A DNA stretch of 64,000 nucleotides from Isosphaeraceae bacterium EP7 (GTDB lineage Bacteria; Planctomycetota; Planctomycetia; Isosphaerales; Isosphaeraceae), in assembly GCA_038400315.1 (NCBI GenBank), contig CP151667.1, positions 1,561,174 to 1,625,173 of the forward strand, in the 5' to 3' direction. This document shows positions 26,739 through 41,172 of the stretch, one piece after another (within the stretch, counting starts at the first letter, position 1; the number at the start of each line of letters is the position of its first letter). The position numbers and the translations under genes are program-made. The notes under the pieces were generated by a model. That model saw only the letters and a program-made list of their open reading frames with translations, was not told where the DNA came from and ran no database searches.

Positions 26739-27626
26739 TCAGCTCCCCACTTCCTGGTCGGTGGTCACGCGCACTTCCAGGCGGCTCATCAGCTTCTTGA
26801 GCATCTCCTCCTTCTGGGTGATGCGCAAGACGTTGTCCAGGATGATCGCCTTATTCTCGCTGGCGACGTGCAGGACCAGGCGGCCCGAGCCGAACATGAA
26901 GTGCTCGAAGATGTCGGGCACCTCCTTGTCGAACTTCAGGTTCATGGTCGGGAACCGCTCCAGGTCGCTCCAGGGGCCGTGATGGTGGAGGATCTCGTTG
27001 GGCAAGATCTCCCAGTAGTCCAGCCAGCGATACAGGAAGATCGTGCCGTAGATGAAGATCAGGGCCAGCGTGAAGAAGAAGTAGAACTGGGCGTTGGCCG
27101 CGACGTAGATGCCGGACATCAGCACGCGGATGGGCGTGAAGAGGTCGAAGTAGGTGGCCAACCAGAGCATCAGGAAGAGGATGGTGGTGATCAGCAGCAG
27201 GCCGGCGACCACGGTGAACCTCGGGAAGTCGATGGCCAGCACCAGCAGATTCAGCACGAAGATGCCCAGGAAGAGCAGGGCCAGCATGTTCTGCGGGCTC
27301 TTGAAGTCGCGGAAGTCGCGATCCTGGCGCTCTTGCTTGGTGGTCGGCGCGGCCGGCTTGGCGGTGGTCTTCTCGACGACAGTCGTGGTCTTGGTTTCAC
27401 CCTTGCTGTCGGCCTTGGTGATCGCGCCCGACTCGATCGTCGAGACTGCGGTTGCCGAGGGGGCGTCGACCTCGTCGCCGGTCATCAGCATGCCGATCCA
27501 GCAGACCAGGGACATGATGAGGGTCGGGAACAGGAAGATGATCTTCGGATAAGTGAAGATCTTCACGCCCTTCTCGCGGTTGGTCACGACCTTGTTGGCG
27601 GGCAAGCCCTTATTGATGGCGGACAT
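26739..27626 (-). CDS. Four-helix membrane protein with cytoplasmic tail, function unknown
   Basis: A 295-residue integral membrane protein. Helices are at about residues 28-48 (IIFLFPTLIMSLVCWIGMLM), 115-133 (MLALLFLGIFVLNLLVLAI), 139-161 and 173-195 (FYFFFTLALIFIYGTIFLY). A Thr/Lys-rich soluble loop separates the first two. The C-terminal 100 residues are soluble (RWLDYWEILPNEILHHHGPWSDLERF, DNVLRITQKEEMLKKLMSRLEV). I do not recognise the family. ATG 27626 has GGAGA upstream; the frame extension upstream is basic and unlikely to be translated. It faces the terminator hairpin shared with the LEPR-XLL gene. Confidence 0.75.
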   Translation of the reverse strand: MSAINKGLPANKVVTNREKGVKIFTYPKIIFLFPTLIMSLVCWIGMLMTGDEVDAPSATAVSTIESGAITKADSKGETKTTTVVEKTTAKPAAPTTKQERQDRDFRDFKSPQNMLALLFLGIFVLNLLVLAIDFPRFTVVAGLLLITTILFLMLWLATYFDLFTPIRVLMSGIYVAANAQFYFFFTLALIFIYGTIFLYRWLDYWEILPNEILHHHGPWSDLERFPTMNLKFDKEVPDIFEHFMFGSGRLVLHVASENKAIILDNVLRITQKEEMLKKLMSRLEVRVTTDQEVGS

Positions 27627-27872
27627 GGCGCTGATGCTCTCCGTGGTCGGGCGACGGCCCCGGGCGGAACGCCGGGGCGGAGCGGTCCGGGCGCGTTGGT
27701 TCGGTCCGACGACGCCCGGGTCGAAATCGTAACCTTCGCGGCGCAAAGGGGAAAGCCTCACCCCCGCCGATGGGGGTCGTTTCCGCGAGGGGCCCGCGCG
27801 CCGCGACCTTATCCAACCATTCGAGGCCTGCGTCTCGATCTTGGATGGGTCCGCCCCCAGGCGACCCGCACG

Positions 27873-28187
27873 TCACGGGCCGTCGATCGCCGCCAGGCCG
27901 GCGCGGACCTCGCCCAGGCCGGGTCGGGACACTTGCTCGAGCACGGCCCCGTCCTTCATGAACACCAGAGTCGGCCAGAGCTTCACCCGGAATGAGCGGC
28001 CAAGAGGCCGGCCCGGCCCGTCCTCGACCTTCAGGTGAGTGATTTTCGGATGATCCTCCAGCATCTTTGCCAGCGCGGGGGCAAGCTGCCGGCAGTGGCC
28101 GCAGTCGGTGGCGCCAAACTCGACGATCACCGGCCCCTGCATCGCGTCGATCTCGTCACGTTTCGGCTCGGGCTGTTGTTCGCTCAT
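27873..28187 (-). CDS. Thioredoxin-fold protein with CGHC site
   Basis: A 104-residue cytoplasmic thioredoxin-like protein. The redox site is DCGHC (Cys29, Cys32) in VIVEFGATDCGHCRQLAPAL, and the cis-Pro loop is LWPTLVFMKDG. The Trp usually found before the first Cys is Asp here, and the CGHC dipeptide resembles protein disulfide isomerases, which suggests a shifted redox potential. The ATG at 28187 has GAGGA nine bases upstream. The gene diverges from the sulfatase gene with about 100 bases between starts, so the two might share regulation. Confidence 0.88.
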   Translation of the reverse strand: MSEQQPEPKRDEIDAMQGPVIVEFGATDCGHCRQLAPALAKMLEDHPKITHLKVEDGPGRPLGRSFRVKLWPTLVFMKDGAVLEQVSRPGLGEVRAGLAAIDGP

Positions 28188-28216
28188 CAATCATTTCCTC
28201 GAATCTCGATCGGGAT

Positions 28217-28245
28217 TCGATCGAACCTCGATCATCCGGTACAAT
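28217..28245 (+). promoter_or_regulatory. Possible promoter of the sulfatase gene
   Basis: TCGATC at 28217-28222 and TACAAT at 28240-28245 are 17 bases apart. The -10 is 5/6 and the -35 weak. Transcription from here would start about 28252, downstream of an ATG at 28244, which favours the GTG start at 28292. Confidence 0.35.
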
Positions 28246-28291
28246 GGGGCCTTGGACGCAAACAACGCGCCGGCCCGAGAGTGATCCAATC

Positions 28292-29923
28292 GTGCAGTAT
28301 CGACGTCTTACGCCCTTGCTCGTCTCCGCGCTACTGGCCTGCTTGACCCTGATGGGTGCGATTGCGGCCGAGAAGGCGCCTCGCAAGCCCCCCAATATTG
28401 TGGTCTTCCTGGCCGACGACATGGGGTTCTCCGACGTCGGCTGTTACGGAGGCGAGATTGCCACGCCCAACCTCGACGCGCTCGCCGCGGGCGGGGTCCG
28501 GTTCAGCCAGTTCTACAACACGGCCCGCTGCTGGCCATCAAGGGCCTCGCTGCTGACGGGATATTATGCCCAGCAGGTGAACCGCGATCCGATGGCCAAT
28601 CGACCGAAGTGGGCGGCACTGCTCCCGCAACTGCTCCAGCCGGCCGGCTATCGGTCGTATCAGACGGGCAAGTGGCACGTCGATGGGCCCGTGCTGGCCG
28701 GCGGGTTTTCTCGGTCATACGAGCTGCTCGACCACAACCGGAACTTCAACCCGAGGCAGCACAACCTCGACGATACGCCCCTGCCGCCCGTCCCCCCCGG
28801 CACCGATTACTACACAACCACGGCCGTCGCCGGGCACGCCCTTGAGTTCCTCGACGAGCACGAAACGAAACACAAGGCCGACCCGTTCTTCCTCTATGTC
28901 GCGTTCACCACCCCGCACTTCCCGGTGCAGGCCCCCGAGGCCGACATCGCCCGATACCGGGGCAAGTACAGCGATGGCTGGGACTCGGCCCGCGAACGTC
29001 GCCTGAAACGGATGCGCGAACTCGGAATTTATGACGGGACCCTCTCGACACGCGACCCCCTGACCATCCCCCCCGGCAACAAGCCCAACGCCCTGACGGC
29101 CAAGATCGGCCCAGGCGAAGTCGGCCACGCCGTGGCCTGGGACACACTGTCCGACGAGCAGAAGGCGTTCCAGGCCGAGAAAATGGCGATCCACGCGGCG
29201 ATGGTCGACCGGATGGACCGCGAGATCGGCCGCGTGCTCGACCGCCTGAAGGCGCAGGGGCACGAGGAAGACACGATCGTGCTGTTCGCCTCGGACAACG
29301 GAGCCAGCGCGGAAGAACTCATCCGCGGCGACGGCCACGATCCCGCGGCGCCCGCCGGTTCGGCCGGCAGCTTCCTCTGCCTCGGCCCGGGATGGTCCAC
29401 GGCATCCAACGCCCCGTTCCGACTGCACAAGATGTGGAACCACGAAGGGGGGATCTCCACCCCCCTGATCGTGCGCTGGCCCGCCGGAATCCCGGCCCGG
29501 GGCGAGATCCGCCGCAGCCCCGGCCACCTGGTCGACTTCGCGCCGACGTTCCTCGACCTGGCAGGCCTGAAGGCCCCCAAGACCTGGTCAGGCGAGCCCA
29601 GGCCCGAATTCCCCGGCAAAAGCCTGGTTCCTTCACTGGTCGACAACACCCCGATCGAGCGCGACTTCCTCTTCTTCAAGCACGCGGGCAACCGCGCCCT
29701 GCGAGCCGGCAACTGGAAGATCGTAGCGGCCGGCCCGAACTCTCCCTGGGAGCTGTACAACCTGGCCGTCGACCGTGGCGAGACCACCAACCTGGCCGCC
29801 GCCCATCGCAATCAGGTGCAGCAGATGTCCGATACCTGGGCCAAGGCCGATCTCCAATACACCGCGCAGGGGGCTACGGGGGGTTCTACACCGGTCAAAG
29901 CGAGGACCGCTCCCGATCGTTAG
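28292..29923 (+). CDS. Secreted arylsulfatase (type I sulfatase)
   Basis: A 543-residue exported sulfatase. After a signal peptide (RLTPLLVSALLACLTLMGAIAAEK) comes NIVVFLADDMGFSDVGCYGG with the metal-binding Asp pair. The active-site C80-WPSRASLLTG (C-x-P-S-R) predicts Cys80 is converted to formylglycine. Other motifs are GYRSYQTGKWHV, DRMDREIGRVLDRL, VLFASDNGASAEE and the EGGISTPLIVRWPA strand. Type I sulfatases are abundant in planctomycetes and release sulfate from algal glycans; the substrate here is unknown. Start GTG 28292 is set by signal-peptide position, with ATG 28244 as alternative. No formylglycine-generating enzyme lies in the window. Confidence 0.92.
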   Translation: MQYRRLTPLLVSALLACLTLMGAIAAEKAPRKPPNIVVFLADDMGFSDVGCYGGEIATPNLDALAAGGVRFSQFYNTARCWPSRASLLTGYYAQQVNRDPMANRPKWAALLPQLLQPAGYRSYQTGKWHVDGPVLAGGFSRSYELLDHNRNFNPRQHNLDDTPLPPVPPGTDYYTTTAVAGHALEFLDEHETKHKADPFFLYVAFTTPHFPVQAPEADIARYRGKYSDGWDSARERRLKRMRELGIYDGTLSTRDPLTIPPGNKPNALTAKIGPGEVGHAVAWDTLSDEQKAFQAEKMAIHAAMVDRMDREIGRVLDRLKAQGHEEDTIVLFASDNGASAEELIRGDGHDPAAPAGSAGSFLCLGPGWSTASNAPFRLHKMWNHEGGISTPLIVRWPAGIPARGEIRRSPGHLVDFAPTFLDLAGLKAPKTWSGEPRPEFPGKSLVPSLVDNTPIERDFLFFKHAGNRALRAGNWKIVAAGPNSPWELYNLAVDRGETTNLAAAHRNQVQQMSDTWAKADLQYTAQGATGGSTPVKARTAPDR

Positions 29924-30016: not shown

Positions 30017-30229
30017 TCAAAGGCCACACGCGAGATCGATCAGTTGTTTAATGCTTTTGCATTTGTGAATATCAGCAACTGATGCTTCCTTGCCCGCCCG
30101 GTCGATCAGCGCGAGAATGCTCATGATCTCGATCGAGTCCCAGGTCTTGGGGGAGATGGCCAGGTCCTCCGTCAGCGAGTCGTCTTCGAGGATCTTGCGG
30201 ATGCCGTCGAGGCATTGGGGACGTTCCAT
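30017..30229 (-). CDS. Acyl carrier protein of the acyl-biosynthesis cluster
   Basis: A 70-residue four-helix carrier protein. The phosphopantetheine site is Ser32 in TWDSIEIMSILALID, where the canonical DSL is DSI. GAGGAG precedes the ATG. Its shortness and non-canonical motif suggest a dedicated carrier and not the housekeeping fatty-acid ACP. It is the last gene of a minus-strand group following the KASIII gene by 20 bases, with an acyltransferase and an SDR upstream. Growing or starter acyl chains would be tethered here. Confidence 0.85.
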   Translation of the reverse strand: MERPQCLDGIRKILEDDSLTEDLAISPKTWDSIEIMSILALIDRAGKEASVADIHKCKSIKQLIDLACGL

Positions 30230-30249
30230 CGGCGATCGCTCCTCGAATA

Positions 30250-31281
30250 TCAGGGAATTCTGATCAGGGTCGCGGCCCACGAGTAGCCGACGCCGAACCC
30301 GACAAGCATGACCCGGTCGCCCGGTCGCACCTCGCCCCGGGCCGTGGCCCGCTCCAGGGCGATCGGGATGCTGGAGGAGACCGTATTGCCGGTGTCCTCC
30401 ATGTCGATTGCAAACTTCGCGGGGGGGATGTCTAGCTTGTCACGCAGCCGCTCCAACATGAATTTGTTGGCCTGGTGGAAGAGGAAATAATCGACATCCG
30501 CGATGCCGAGGCCGGACCTTGCCAGGAGTCCATTCACCGCGGCCGGCACCGAACGCAGGGCGAAGGCAAACACCTCGGCACCGTTCATGGACAAGTTCTC
30601 GTCGGATCGGAAATTGCCGGCATCGTCGGACCTCTCGATGCTCGTCTCACGAGTGGCCGGGCATCTCATCCCCCCGGCCCTCACGATCAGGTTCGGGGCG
30701 CCACCGCCGTCGGTGCCGAAGAGGAACGGGCCGATCGATTCTTCGTCGTCCGACTCAGTGCTTTGCGCGATGAGGGTCGCCGCGGCCCCGTCGCCGAAGA
30801 TCGACCGCGTGCTGCGGTCCCTCGGGTTGATGAACTTCGAATAGGTGTCCGAGGTGATCAGCAGGACATTCTCGGCGACACGACTCTCCACGAGCCCTTT
30901 CGCCACCGCCAGGCCGTAGAGATACCCGGAACAACCCTGGTTGATGTCGACCGCCGCGCAACTCTCCCGGAGGTTCAGGCCCGCGTGGGCGAGGCATGCG
31001 GTCGTCGGCAGGAAGTGGTCCGGGCTCTGGGTGCAGAAGAGGAGGAAGTCGACATCTCGCGGGTCGCATGCACCCGCTGCAAACAAGGCCTTCGCCGCGG
31101 CGATGCCGAGGTCCGAGGAGCACTCATCGCGGGCCGCGATCCTCCTCGCGGCGATGCCCGTCTTGGACCTGATCTTGTCCCCGTCCCAATCCCCGAATTC
31201 GCGGACGAGCTGCTCGTTCGTCAGCGAATACTCGGGGAGATGAGAGGCGACCTGCTTAATCGCGGCTCGAATCCGGCCCAT
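30250..31281 (-). CDS. 3-oxoacyl-ACP synthase III (KASIII/FabH-like)
   Basis: A 343-residue thiolase-fold condensing enzyme with an intact triad: Cys117 in INQGCSGYLYG, His269 in FLFHQAN and Asn299 in EDTGNTVSSS. The C-terminal VMLVGFGVGYSWAATLIRI is the family's final motif. KASIII joins acyl-CoA and malonyl-ACP in a first condensation; branches of the family also make non-fatty-acid products. AGAGGAG precedes the ATG. The gene start overlaps the end of the acyltransferase gene by 26 bases, and the ACP gene follows after 20 bases, so this is one transcription unit. Confidence 0.9.
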   Translation of the reverse strand: MGRIRAAIKQVASHLPEYSLTNEQLVREFGDWDGDKIRSKTGIAARRIAARDECSSDLGIAAAKALFAAGACDPRDVDFLLFCTQSPDHFLPTTACLAHAGLNLRESCAAVDINQGCSGYLYGLAVAKGLVESRVAENVLLITSDTYSKFINPRDRSTRSIFGDGAAATLIAQSTESDDEESIGPFLFGTDGGGAPNLIVRAGGMRCPATRETSIERSDDAGNFRSDENLSMNGAEVFAFALRSVPAAVNGLLARSGLGIADVDYFLFHQANKFMLERLRDKLDIPPAKFAIDMEDTGNTVSSSIPIALERATARGEVRPGDRVMLVGFGVGYSWAATLIRIP

Positions 31282-32719
31282 CGCTGGCGCTCCTCTCGTC
31301 GTGTCGCACCGGAAGATCCGGGTCGACGGCCCCCGCCAACTCAGTCAGCGAGCGGAGATAAATCTCCAGGAATTGCAGGGCCGCCCGGCGGTCGAACAAG
31401 GCCCTGCGATAGCGGAGGGCGAGATGGATCCGGCCCCTGAGGAATGCGGCATCCATGCCGAGTCCCATGGGCATCGTGACGGGCGGCGAGGCCCAGAACT
31501 CCGTCAGGTCGCCGGCGCCCGGGCCGAAGCCGGAAATCTTCCGATCGATCCGGCCCATGTTCGCGAACAGCATCGAATCCACGGGCCCCTTGATCGAAAC
31601 GGGGACGACCCGCGGCGTGTACAGGATCATCGGCAGGATGGTGTTCGAGATCAGCCAGCGCACCCATTCCGGTCGGCCCAGGAATCTGGAGAATCCAGGG
31701 CCGGAGCGGATTCGATTCATCTGCGAGGTGACCGCCGCGACGAGTGCCCTGTGGTCCGCCCGGTCGTTGGGCGTGGTCGCATTTCGATCGACGATGACGA
31801 CCATCGAGGCCACCTCGTTGCTCCATTCGATGGGCCTGAGATTGACCGGGACCAGGATCGAGATCCGGTGGCTGTCCCCGCCGCACACCCGGTTCCAGCG
31901 CTCGATTGTCAGGTGCAGACCTGCCAGGAGCAGGTCATTGACGGTCGTGTCGCGCCCGTACACGCTCGGATCGAAGCGGTCGCATTGTTCCGCCGAGATG
32001 ACCTGGTGAACGATCCCGAAGCCGGGCTCGTCTCGGTCCACGACGCGGGCGACCCCTGAGACGATGCCAGACGAGGTTTGAGGGGCGACCTCGACGCTGG
32101 TGGTCGGCGCGCACTCGGGCACGAAGGCGCTGAGATCGCGCACGGACAACGGGTCGACCTCGGGCACGGGATCGGCCCGTCCTGCGTACGCTCGCGCCAC
32201 CGAGTTGACCCAGCGGATGGCCCCGATCCCATCCATCAGCGAATGATGAATGTTGAAGAGCAGGCTGTCGCCTCCGAGGCGGTGGACCAGCAGGGCGCGG
32301 ATCGCGGGCGCCTTCCTCAGATCCGGGAGGCTGCTGTAGAACTCGTCGCGGAGCGAGTTCAGTGCCTCCTCGTTGTCAATGACCTCGGAACAAACTACAC
32401 CTTCCGCGCCGACGCGGCCGATCGCCCAGCGAGGTGCCCGGGCCAAAAACCGCCCGGAGACGAGCCGGGCGCGAGACATGGGGTGCTTCGCCAGCGCGGC
32501 GGCGATGGCATCATTAAGCCTAAGCTCGCAGATCGATCCCGAGACGCGGACCTCGAACTGCATACTTTGCGGCTCGTCGGGGAGATTCGGGGCGAAGATC
32601 TCCTCCCCGGGGCTCATCGGGAATGGCTTCACGCGGGTCCGATCGCCGGGCCTATCCTCGGGCGGCCCACCTGCCGGGCTCAATGCGGGGATGGGCCTGA
32701 TCCTCTCTTCCTGAAGCAT
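31256..32719 (-). CDS. HHxxxDG acyltransferase / condensation-domain superfamily protein
   Basis: A 487-residue protein of the CoA-dependent acyltransferase fold shared by NRPS condensation domains, PapA5-like and wax-ester/WS-DGAT enzymes. The active-site motif is FNIHHSLMDGIGAIRWVN, with His159 as expected general base and Asp163. Supporting elements are TTVNDLLLAGL and VPVNLRPIEWSNEVASMVV, where other members place the second substrate-contact region. The acceptor could be an alcohol, an amine or a lipid. The N-terminal 34 residues are Pro-rich and weakly supported, with a second ATG at 32617. The 3' end overlaps the KASIII start by 26 bases. Confidence 0.8.
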   Translation of the reverse strand: MLQEERIRPIPALSPAGGPPEDRPGDRTRVKPFPMSPGEEIFAPNLPDEPQSMQFEVRVSGSICELRLNDAIAAALAKHPMSRARLVSGRFLARAPRWAIGRVGAEGVVCSEVIDNEEALNSLRDEFYSSLPDLRKAPAIRALLVHRLGGDSLLFNIHHSLMDGIGAIRWVNSVARAYAGRADPVPEVDPLSVRDLSAFVPECAPTTSVEVAPQTSSGIVSGVARVVDRDEPGFGIVHQVISAEQCDRFDPSVYGRDTTVNDLLLAGLHLTIERWNRVCGGDSHRISILVPVNLRPIEWSNEVASMVVIVDRNATTPNDRADHRALVAAVTSQMNRIRSGPGFSRFLGRPEWVRWLISNTILPMILYTPRVVPVSIKGPVDSMLFANMGRIDRKISGFGPGAGDLTEFWASPPVTMPMGLGMDAAFLRGRIHLALRYRRALFDRRAALQFLEIYLRSLTELAGAVDPDLPVRHDERSASDGPDSSRD

Positions 32720-32785
32720 GGATTCCCCCGGTGGTCGCGGGCACCGACTGATCGACTGGCGTCGGCTCAGGATGGGTCGTGACGG

Positions 32786-33550
32786 CTACTGGGCGGTAAA
32801 TCCCCCGTCGACGACCAATGTCGTGCCGGTGATCCATCGGCCGGTCTCGGCGAGTAGGAACGCGATCGCGTTGGCCACGTCGACCGGCTCTCCGAGGCCG
32901 AGCGGGTGCAATAACTCGACGGCGGATCGCTGGCCCTCGTCGAGGTTCTTCAGGATACGGTCGGTCATCGCTGTCTTGACGAGTGAAGGGGCGACGCAAT
33001 TTACGCGGATGTTCTCGCGAGCCATCTCCATCGCTGCCGACTTGGTGAAGGCGATCAATGCCCCCTTCGTCGCGGCGTAAGCCGAGACTCCGGGTTGACC
33101 AGTCAGTCCGGTGATCGACGCGAGCAGCACGACGCTCGAGGGTCGGCTGGCGACCCCTTTCTGACGGAACCCGCGGACGAGCTGGACGGCCGCAGCGACG
33201 TTGATCCGCCAGAGACCGTCGAGTTCCCCGGGCTCGAGCATCCGGATCGGGACAATCGAATGAAGGCCCGCCGCGTGGACAAGGCCATTCAGGCCACCCA
33301 CTCGCCTCCCCAGCTCCTTGACCCAACCCATGATCGGCTCGGGCTCGGAGAGGTCATGCGACTCGATGATGTGCCCCGCTCCGGCCAGCCGGAGGGCCGT
33401 CTCTTCGAGGCGTGCTCGGTCGCGCGCGATCAAGATGAGTCGCGCCCCCAACTGGCTGAGCAGCACGGCCGTCTCGCGGCCGATCCCCGAGGACGCCCCA
33501 GTCACCAGGACGGTCCGACCGCTGAGATCCATGGGATTGACGATGGTCAT
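32786..33550 (-). CDS. SDR family 3-oxoacyl-reductase-like protein
   Basis: A 254-residue classical short-chain dehydrogenase. The cofactor motif is VLVTGASSGIG (18-24), and the catalytic region is SSVVLLASITGLTGQPGVSAYAATKGAL, with Ser in the first part and Tyr-x3-Lys (YAATK). The C-terminal tail WITGTTLVVDGGFTAQ is FabG-like. The residue after the glycine motif is Arg, compatible with NADPH. As first gene of the minus-strand acyl cluster it probably reduces the beta-keto product of the KASIII. Start codon is uncertain (ATG 33550 or GTG 33559). The next gene follows after 66 bases. Confidence 0.87.
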   Translation of the reverse strand: MTIVNPMDLSGRTVLVTGASSGIGRETAVLLSQLGARLILIARDRARLEETALRLAGAGHIIESHDLSEPEPIMGWVKELGRRVGGLNGLVHAAGLHSIVPIRMLEPGELDGLWRINVAAAVQLVRGFRQKGVASRPSSVVLLASITGLTGQPGVSAYAATKGALIAFTKSAAMEMARENIRVNCVAPSLVKTAMTDRILKNLDEGQRSAVELLHPLGLGEPVDVANAIAFLLAETGRWITGTTLVVDGGFTAQ

Positions 33551-33628: not shown

Positions 33629-33656
33629 ATCTTACTCTAGTCGTGCCTCGTGACAA
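33629..33656 (-). promoter_or_regulatory. Promoter of the SDR-acyltransferase-KASIII-ACP operon
   Basis: Read on the minus strand, TTGTCA (33656-33651) and TAAGAT (33634-33629) are separated by 16 bases. Matches are 5/6 and 4/6. It lies about 80 bases upstream of the SDR start and faces that operon. Confidence 0.5.
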
Positions 33657-34310: not shown

Positions 34311-34395
34311 GGAGAGGTGACAGAGCGGCCGATTGTGCGGCACTGGAAATGCCGTGTACCGAAAGGTACCGAGGGTTCGAATCCCTCCCTCTCCG
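34311..34395 (+). tRNA. tRNA-Ser (anticodon GGA)
   Basis: An 85-base class II tRNA. The acceptor stem pairs GGAGAGG (34311-34317) with CCTCTCC (34388-34394), with G as discriminator. The anticodon stem CGGCA/TGCCG encloses the loop CTGGAAA, so the anticodon is GGA, reading UCU and UCC. The long variable arm (around 34356-34369) and the T arm GAGGG-TTCGAAT-CCCTC agree with serine tRNA. CCA is not encoded. Confidence 0.96.
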
Positions 34396-35897: not shown

Positions 35898-37420
<1,523 letters not shown>

Positions 37421-37985
37421 CTAAGGATGTCTCCAAGTTATCGGCACCGCCCGCAACCGCGGCGGCACGCGTCGGCTTCCCTCAGAGGTTCACACGCTGG
37501 ATCTGTCTTCTCGCTCGATCGATCACCGCGCGGATAGTCGCCGGCCGGGTTCGTCCCGTCCGGCGATTGTTCACTCGGATGGTTTGGGGATTCGGTCCCC
37601 CCCCCCTGCTTCACCGGGCGGGGGGCGTCGCCTGCACTTGACTGTGCGGACGTCGCCCTCCGGCCGGTGGCCGGGTCTCTCGGCGGCTTCGGCCGTCGGA
37701 GGGACACTCTTTGACAATCCGGTGTCAGTCACGCAAGAAGTTTCTAGGACGTGATACATCTCCGCCTCCGGCGGGCGTGGGCTTCGGCCCATGAGCCTCG
37801 GAGGGGCGACTTGCACGTTTCATCTCCACGAAAGTGGACCTTCGGAGCGATAGTGATAAGTCAGTCCTCGCCGTGAGGCGACGATTGACTTGCAGAGCAG
37901 AGAGAGGACCGCATCGGTCCGGATGAGCCAGGCTGGATCAAGGCCGAAAGGTCGTGGGTCCGACAGGGCGGGTTCGGGTCGGCGT
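37421..37985 (+). other. 16S-23S internal transcribed spacer without tRNA genes
   Basis: 565 bases with no tRNA cloverleaf; neither tRNA-Ile nor tRNA-Ala motifs are seen. It holds several GC-rich hairpins, a boxA element and the left arm of the 23S processing stem. No coding region is supported. Confidence 0.8.
37707..37838 (+). promoter_or_regulatory. 23S leader boxA plus hairpin
   Basis: CTCTTTGACAAT at 37707-37718 repeats the 16S leader boxA almost exactly. A TCCAC-GAAA-GTGGA hairpin (GNRA-type loop) at 37825-37838 is followed by CCTT, like the hairpin of the 16S leader. boxA sits 268 bases before 23S; the 16S boxA is 254 bases before 16S. Confidence 0.6.

Positions 37986-37992
<7 letters not shown>
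37967..37992 (+). other. Left arm of the 23S precursor processing stem
   Basis: These 26 bases can pair with 40794-40819 with only two mismatches and two wobbles, so they enclose the whole 23S rRNA. This is a typical RNase III substrate. The inner end coincides with the GGTCAAG/CTTGACC ends of mature 23S. Confidence 0.65.
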
Positions 37993-40793
<2,801 letters not shown>

Positions 40794-40800
<7 letters not shown>

Positions 40801-40819
40801 ACCCCGACTCGGCCCCGCC
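40794..40819 (+). other. Right arm of the 23S precursor processing stem
   Basis: Complementary to 37967-37992; see the left arm. Extends the 23S terminal helix by about 19 bases into the 23S-5S spacer, giving an RNase III-like processing site before the 5S gene. Confidence 0.6.
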
Positions 40820-41063
40820 CCCCAAGGCGGGCCACCCGAGACGAACAGGGTGTGTCCTCAACCTGCCGCGAGTGCCCGCACCCTCGACCTCCGTCGAGAT
40901 GCGGAATCACCGCTCCGGCCCATCTTTCGCCACGAGACGAGGCGTCCAACGACGCCCCTCGCGGACGATCGCATCCCGCCCGAAGATTCTGATCGCGTGA
41001 CTGACCGGATTGCCAGAGCAGCATCCACCGCGAACGTCGGGCCTGACCGCCCGCCGTCCGCTT

Positions 41064-41172
41064 TCCCGGCGACCATACTGGCGGGGCCACACCCGTTCCC
41101 ATCCCGAACACGGCCGTTAAGCCCGCCAGGCCCATGATAGTGCGCAAGCGCGAAAGTCGGTCATCGCCGGGA
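41064..41172 (+). rRNA. rrf: 5S ribosomal RNA
   Basis: A 109-base 5S rRNA. Helix I pairs TCCCGGCGA (41064-41072) with TCGCCGGGA (41164-41172). The conserved CCCATCCCGAACACGG core is at 41099-41114 and the TGATAGTGCG segment follows. It lies 263 bases after 23S and 16 bases before the operon terminator, so the rRNA genes are linked in the standard 16S-23S-5S order. Confidence 0.92.

Follow-up and report, generated by a model that had tools for sequence, protein, structure and literature searches.

A VioS/VioR/ACP-type module joined to a stand-alone HHxxxDG acyltransferase in a planctomycete operon predicted to transfer a short 3-hydroxyacyl group

In the 64,000-nucleotide stretch of the Isosphaeraceae bacterium EP7 genome analysed here (hereafter, the window), a minus-strand operon encodes a KASIII, an SDR-family reductase, a small ACP and a stand-alone acyltransferase with an HHxxxDG motif. 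This operon probably makes a 3-hydroxyacyl group of short chain length, with 3-hydroxybutyryl as the likeliest candidate, and the HHxxxDG enzyme would transfer it to a hydroxyl or an amine. Judged from their sequences, the KASIII, the SDR and the ACP belong to a widespread and partly characterised VioS/VioR/ACP-type module for the acylation of surface-glycan and flagellin sugars. The first-pass annotation of this DNA had proposed a self-contained acylating system with a possible new acyl-chain product. Indeed, the locus is not a housekeeping one, it has a dedicated ACP and its motif points to acyl transfer, but a new kind of system is not supported: its supply module has been described before, and only the swap of the acyltransferase and the missing sugar genes are novel.

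Read on the minus strand, the operon begins with the SDR-family 3-ketoacyl-ACP reductase (VioR-like; 32786-33550, ATG start at 33550, with alternative starts at GTG 33559 and ATG 33532), followed by the stand-alone acyltransferase of the condensation/WS-DGAT/PapA superfamily (31256-32719), the VioS-like beta-ketoacyl-ACP synthase (KASIII; 30250-31281) and the ACP, of 70 aa with an ATG start (30017-30229). According to the ORF calls, the acyltransferase gene shares 26 bases with the KASIII gene, with gaps of 66 bases between the SDR and acyltransferase genes and 20 bases between the KASIII and ACP genes. None of the four frames is interrupted, and their catalytic motifs are in place. The overlap and the gaps agree exactly with the first-pass annotation, whose catalytic residues, acyltransferase motif and dedicated ACP were likewise recovered (see below). 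Its promoter fared otherwise: the letters of the sigma-70-like hexamers TTGTCA-N16-TAAGAT are present (33629-33656, minus strand), but one such site was observed against 0.6 expected (sd 0.7) in the shuffled stretch, and this chance-level match, which gives no evidence of function, was dropped.

The operon is flanked on one side by a convergent sulfatase gene (28067-29923) and on the other by a tRNA-Ser gene (at 34311) and then by a plus-strand rRNA operon (16S-23S-5S, complete; 35898-41172), ~2.4 kb from the four genes. The window also encodes PSCyt2/PSD1 and DUF1501 proteins, which point to a genome of planctomycete type, and a minus-strand ORF (26739-27761; 340 aa, hydrophobic in several stretches and unmatched in Pfam) that is adjoined by a thioredoxin-like gene (27873-28190). 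No sugar, glycosyltransferase, aminotransferase or flagellin gene was found among the scanned window proteins, which are a subset of the ORFs.

The KASIII matches PF08541 with 112 bits, its nearest PDB entry is 3gwa (E 1.7e-111), and its residues Cys117, His269 and Asn299 are common to 70/70 of the main homologues compared. When each species was represented by a single genome, a scan recovered 80 loci whose KASIII is 47-60% identical to that of the window. In a tree of 113 sequences, for which the Burkholderia glumae vioA-linked locus served as reference in place of Pseudomonas syringae VioS, the window KASIII lies within the large clade of these homologues (the glycan-locus KASIII clade), and E. 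coli FabH pairs at 100 with the genome's best other KASIII (FabH-type) outside it. Its own subclade (7 rows, support 98) includes homologues from Sporomusa, a Magnetobacteriaceae bin, a Margulisiibacteriota bin, an acidobacterium and a planctomycete of the same family (G439), and the other members come mostly from loci with glycan or flagellar genes. The window enzyme is thus placed in the VioS-like KASIII clade with its Cys-His-Asn triad. Note that this clade also holds a group from Planctomycetota, mostly Thermoguttaceae (L043, L054, L055, L058, L059, L061-L064, L066, L070, L074, L075, L078, L082, L085 and L086), several loci of which lie beside Tex and argininosuccinate-lyase genes; the loci so linked are free of module genes, and this group may be the housekeeping FabH of those genomes. 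Many module loci also carry, near the ACP and SDR, a KASIII of another, separate clade in which Cys-His-Asn is intact (e.g., L019:5452-6564 and ~25 similar genes in other loci), with a second elongation or the choice of starter as candidate roles.

The SDR matches PF13561 (160 bits) and PF00106 (137 bits) and displays TGxxxGxG together with Ser142, Tyr155 and Lys159, which are kept in 51-52/52 homologues. It is 53-57% identical to the SDRs adjoining related KASIII genes (57% to the module SDR from Geobacteraceae), and its tree places it inside the module SDR clade, apart from E. coli FabG with support of 100/99. The small ACP scores 17.0 against Pfam PP-binding, under the cut-off of 20.8, and 34.6 bits against a profile built on the ACPs of related loci; its predicted modified residue is the invariant Ser of W-D-S (TWDSIE; aligned motif W-(D/S/N)-S). 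A match to the holo-ACP synthase family was found in the genome. A housekeeping fab locus was rejected on the basis of both trees, in which the KASIII groups apart from FabH and the SDR apart from FabG. Moreover, the operon contains no FabD, FabF, FabZ or FabI, and the first-pass statement that the first three are missing was correct.

The module is conserved far beyond the window. Among 65 related KASIII loci, an ACP was present within 5 kb in 60/65, an SDR in 55/65 and a left-handed-beta-helix (LbH) acyltransferase in 41/65, followed by a DegT aminotransferase (29/65), a GT2 glycosyltransferase (19/65), a bacterial sugar transferase (18/65) and a PglF-like dehydratase (15/65); these counts describe the module and are no independent test of it, as the module-gene profiles were made from neighbour clusters of the same 65 loci. 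In a separate set of KASIII loci from planctomycetes, 0/18 had these module neighbours. KASIII, SDR and ACP are kept together across many phyla, and module loci often lie amid sugar or flagellin genes. The transferase, for its part, differs in type among loci: a GNAT adjoins the SDR in Azospirillum, an aminoglycoside-3-N-acetyltransferase-like protein adjoins the KASIII in an acidobacterium, and an LbH protein is found in G439. The transferase slot of the module thus appears exchangeable, which makes a swap in the window plausible.

The full four-gene order, searched with the acyltransferase, was found in the source genome alone (7.2 Mb, 5 contigs as searched), among ~450 planctomycetes and the limited collections searched outside the phylum. 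The first-pass annotation had named an order restricted to this genome as an outcome that would refute its reading, and within this search the order is so restricted. A locus from an uncultured bacterium (L018, 3100-9842) was considered as a second case, with a VioS-like KASIII, a sulfotransferase, a module-type SDR that is sister of the window SDR with weak support (82/68), and a condensation/PapA_C protein. The latter carries SHAISDA in place of HHxxxDG, with the first His missing, it lies 5.4 kb from the KASIII, and the locus also holds a truncated copy of the condensation-type gene, so that L018 was retained only as a weak parallel. Open-access titles and abstracts gave no direct match for a precedent in planctomycetes or for an HHxxxDG-KASIII pairing.

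The acyltransferase carries HHSLMDG at residues 158-164 and has, in common with related proteins, an invariant Asn-Asp as well as a Pro...Arg pair. When nine relatives were made into a profile, it recovered solved structures of C domains (E 1.7e-19), PapA (2.7e-11), PapA5 (7e-9) and WSD (5e-8), and together with the motif this profile similarity places the enzyme in the HHxxxDG acyltransferase superfamily. None of the named identities fitted: an NRPS condensation domain was rejected since the PF00668 score (30.4 bits) falls just short of the cut-off of 30.6 and the enzyme is the sole Condensation-like match in the genome; a WS/DGAT was rejected since TIGR02946 (wax ester synthase/DGAT) gives 27.4 against a curated cut-off of 309.95; and a PapA5-type enzyme was rejected since PapA_C (PF16911) has no match up to E 1. 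An AlphaFold model from a two-row alignment was discarded, with a mean pLDDT of 30. Relatives are rare: the nearest (39-40% identity), from a genome of the same family (G014), is a solitary gene that lacks a KASIII in its vicinity, others are distant and lie elsewhere in the phylum, with one 27% match in Embleya, and none of those found adjoins a VioS-like KASIII. By sequence inspection, stand-alone HHxxxDG proteins in other planctomycetes (L113, L114 and L117) lie near SDR, reductase, PPTase-like and large PKS-like genes, possibly an uncharacterised lipid pathway.

Altogether, we infer the chain length, the ACP as donor and the acyl transfer as follows. The KASIII would condense acetyl-CoA with malonyl on the dedicated ACP to acetoacetyl-ACP, the SDR would reduce it to 3-hydroxybutyryl-ACP, and the HHxxxDG enzyme would pass this acyl group on from its carrier to an acceptor with a hydroxyl or an amine, the role of the LbH protein VioB in related loci. 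PapA5 and C domains accept acyl groups from carrier proteins. The missing FabD, FabF and FabZ agree with one condensation followed by one reduction, so that a short 3-hydroxyacyl group is more likely than a lipid chain; a C4 3-hydroxy group is likewise in keeping with an operon that lacks FabF, FabZ and FabI. Because the relatives of the module act on surface-glycan sugars, a sugar of a surface polymer would, by analogy, be the first guess for the acceptor. Two observations count against this model of 3-hydroxyacyl transfer, namely the missing sugar genes among the scanned window proteins and the lack, among the loci found elsewhere, of a close relative of the acyltransferase beside a VioS-like KASIII.

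The former observation also favours a reading that we regard as unlikely, in which the four genes form a small natural-product or lipid operon. Its KASIII would take a longer or a branched acyl-CoA as starter, and the HHxxxDG enzyme, in the manner of PapA or WS/DGAT enzymes, would join the acyl group by an ester or amide bond to an acceptor other than a sugar (an alcohol, an amino acid or a lipid). The profile matches to PapA, PapA5 and WSD structures besides C domains are in keeping with it, as are the distant stand-alone relatives that, on inspection, lie beside apparent type I PKS and reductase genes in other planctomycetes and the KASIII-ACP pair of the same broad group that lies beside PKS/NRPS genes in Deinococcus QL22. 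However, the KASIII, SDR and ACP are all of the glycan-module type, and the operon holds no further chain-building enzymes.

An auxiliary role in fatty-acid initiation, with the operon supplying ordinary membrane lipid synthesis and the acyltransferase as an incidental neighbour, is very improbable. The KASIII and SDR families share FabH and FabG chemistry, but the genome has a separate KASIII that pairs with E. coli FabH, the window SDR lies outside the FabG side of its tree, and the overlap of the acyltransferase and KASIII genes speaks against an incidental neighbour. The least probable reading is a decaying or recently assembled gene set with no coherent joint product; although the restriction of the full order to the source genome and the truncated condensation-type gene in the partly similar L018 set would agree with it, the four intact frames with their catalytic motifs, their tight spacing and overlap, and the maintenance of KASIII, SDR and ACP together across many phyla do not.

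Returning to 3-hydroxyacyl transfer as the preferred reading, we tentatively suggest that a condensation/PapA-superfamily enzyme may have replaced the LbH transferase of the 3-hydroxybutyryl-sugar module and thereby converted a kit for glycan N-acylation into a portable four-gene operon, which in this planctomycete could place the 3-hydroxyacyl group onto a different, possibly hydroxyl-bearing acceptor. If so, a common hydroxyacyl-ACP supply module can couple to transferases of unrelated folds, and the module, rather than the transferase, would predict the acyl group. The operon would also offer a compact, testable example in which an HHxxxDG enzyme comes with an ACP donor of its own, and would point to an acylated molecule of a planctomycete that is so far uncharacterised.

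The closest characterised system is the viosamine island of P. syringae pv. tabaci 6605, which comprises vioS (KASIII), vioR (reductase), acp, vioB (acyltransferase), vioA, vioM and vioT, and whose flagellin glycan ends in a viosamine bearing a 3-hydroxy-1-oxobutyl group (PMC3927599). By mass spectrometry, the vioR mutant loses the modified viosamine, as did vioA, vioB and vioT mutants in earlier work, the individual VioS and ACP steps being predictions of that study, which also points to counterparts (orfB-orfE) in the glycosylation island of P. aeruginosa PAK (PMC3927599). The window operon resembles this island in grouping a KASIII, an SDR reductase, a small ACP and an acyltransferase, and in the predicted passage from acetoacetyl-ACP through 3-hydroxybutyryl-ACP to acyl transfer. 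In contrast, its transferase is a condensation-superfamily enzyme with an HHxxxDG motif, which holds the position of the LbH (VioB/PglD-like) sugar N-acyltransferase, and no vioA aminotransferase, methyltransferase, glycosyltransferase or flagellin gene was found nearby among the scanned window proteins.

On B. glumae pBGF3 (NZ_DQ996271), flagellin, fliD, vioA, KASIII, ACP, SDR and acetyltransferase genes follow in one row. The KASIII is 51% identical to that of the window, and its grouping in one row with ACP and SDR is shared with our operon, there together with an acetyltransferase, whereas this plasmid has vioA, flagellin genes and another stretch that resembles KASIII, and no HHxxxDG enzyme. 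Compared with PapA5, WS/DGAT and NRPS condensation enzymes, the window acyltransferase shares HHxxxDG and detectable profile similarity but differs in scoring under the PF00668 and TIGR02946 cut-offs, in lacking PapA_C and in being a stand-alone enzyme paired with a KASIII-SDR-ACP set. Finally, contig C149 of the same-family planctomycete G439 holds, in row, a polysaccharide deacetylase, an LbH (Hexapep-like) protein, a KASIII (58% identical) and an ACP. Although the slot gene there encodes an LbH protein preceded by the deacetylase, and the contig stretch seen contains no SDR, an acyltransferase-like gene lies directly upstream of the KASIII-ACP pair, as the HHxxxDG gene does in the window.
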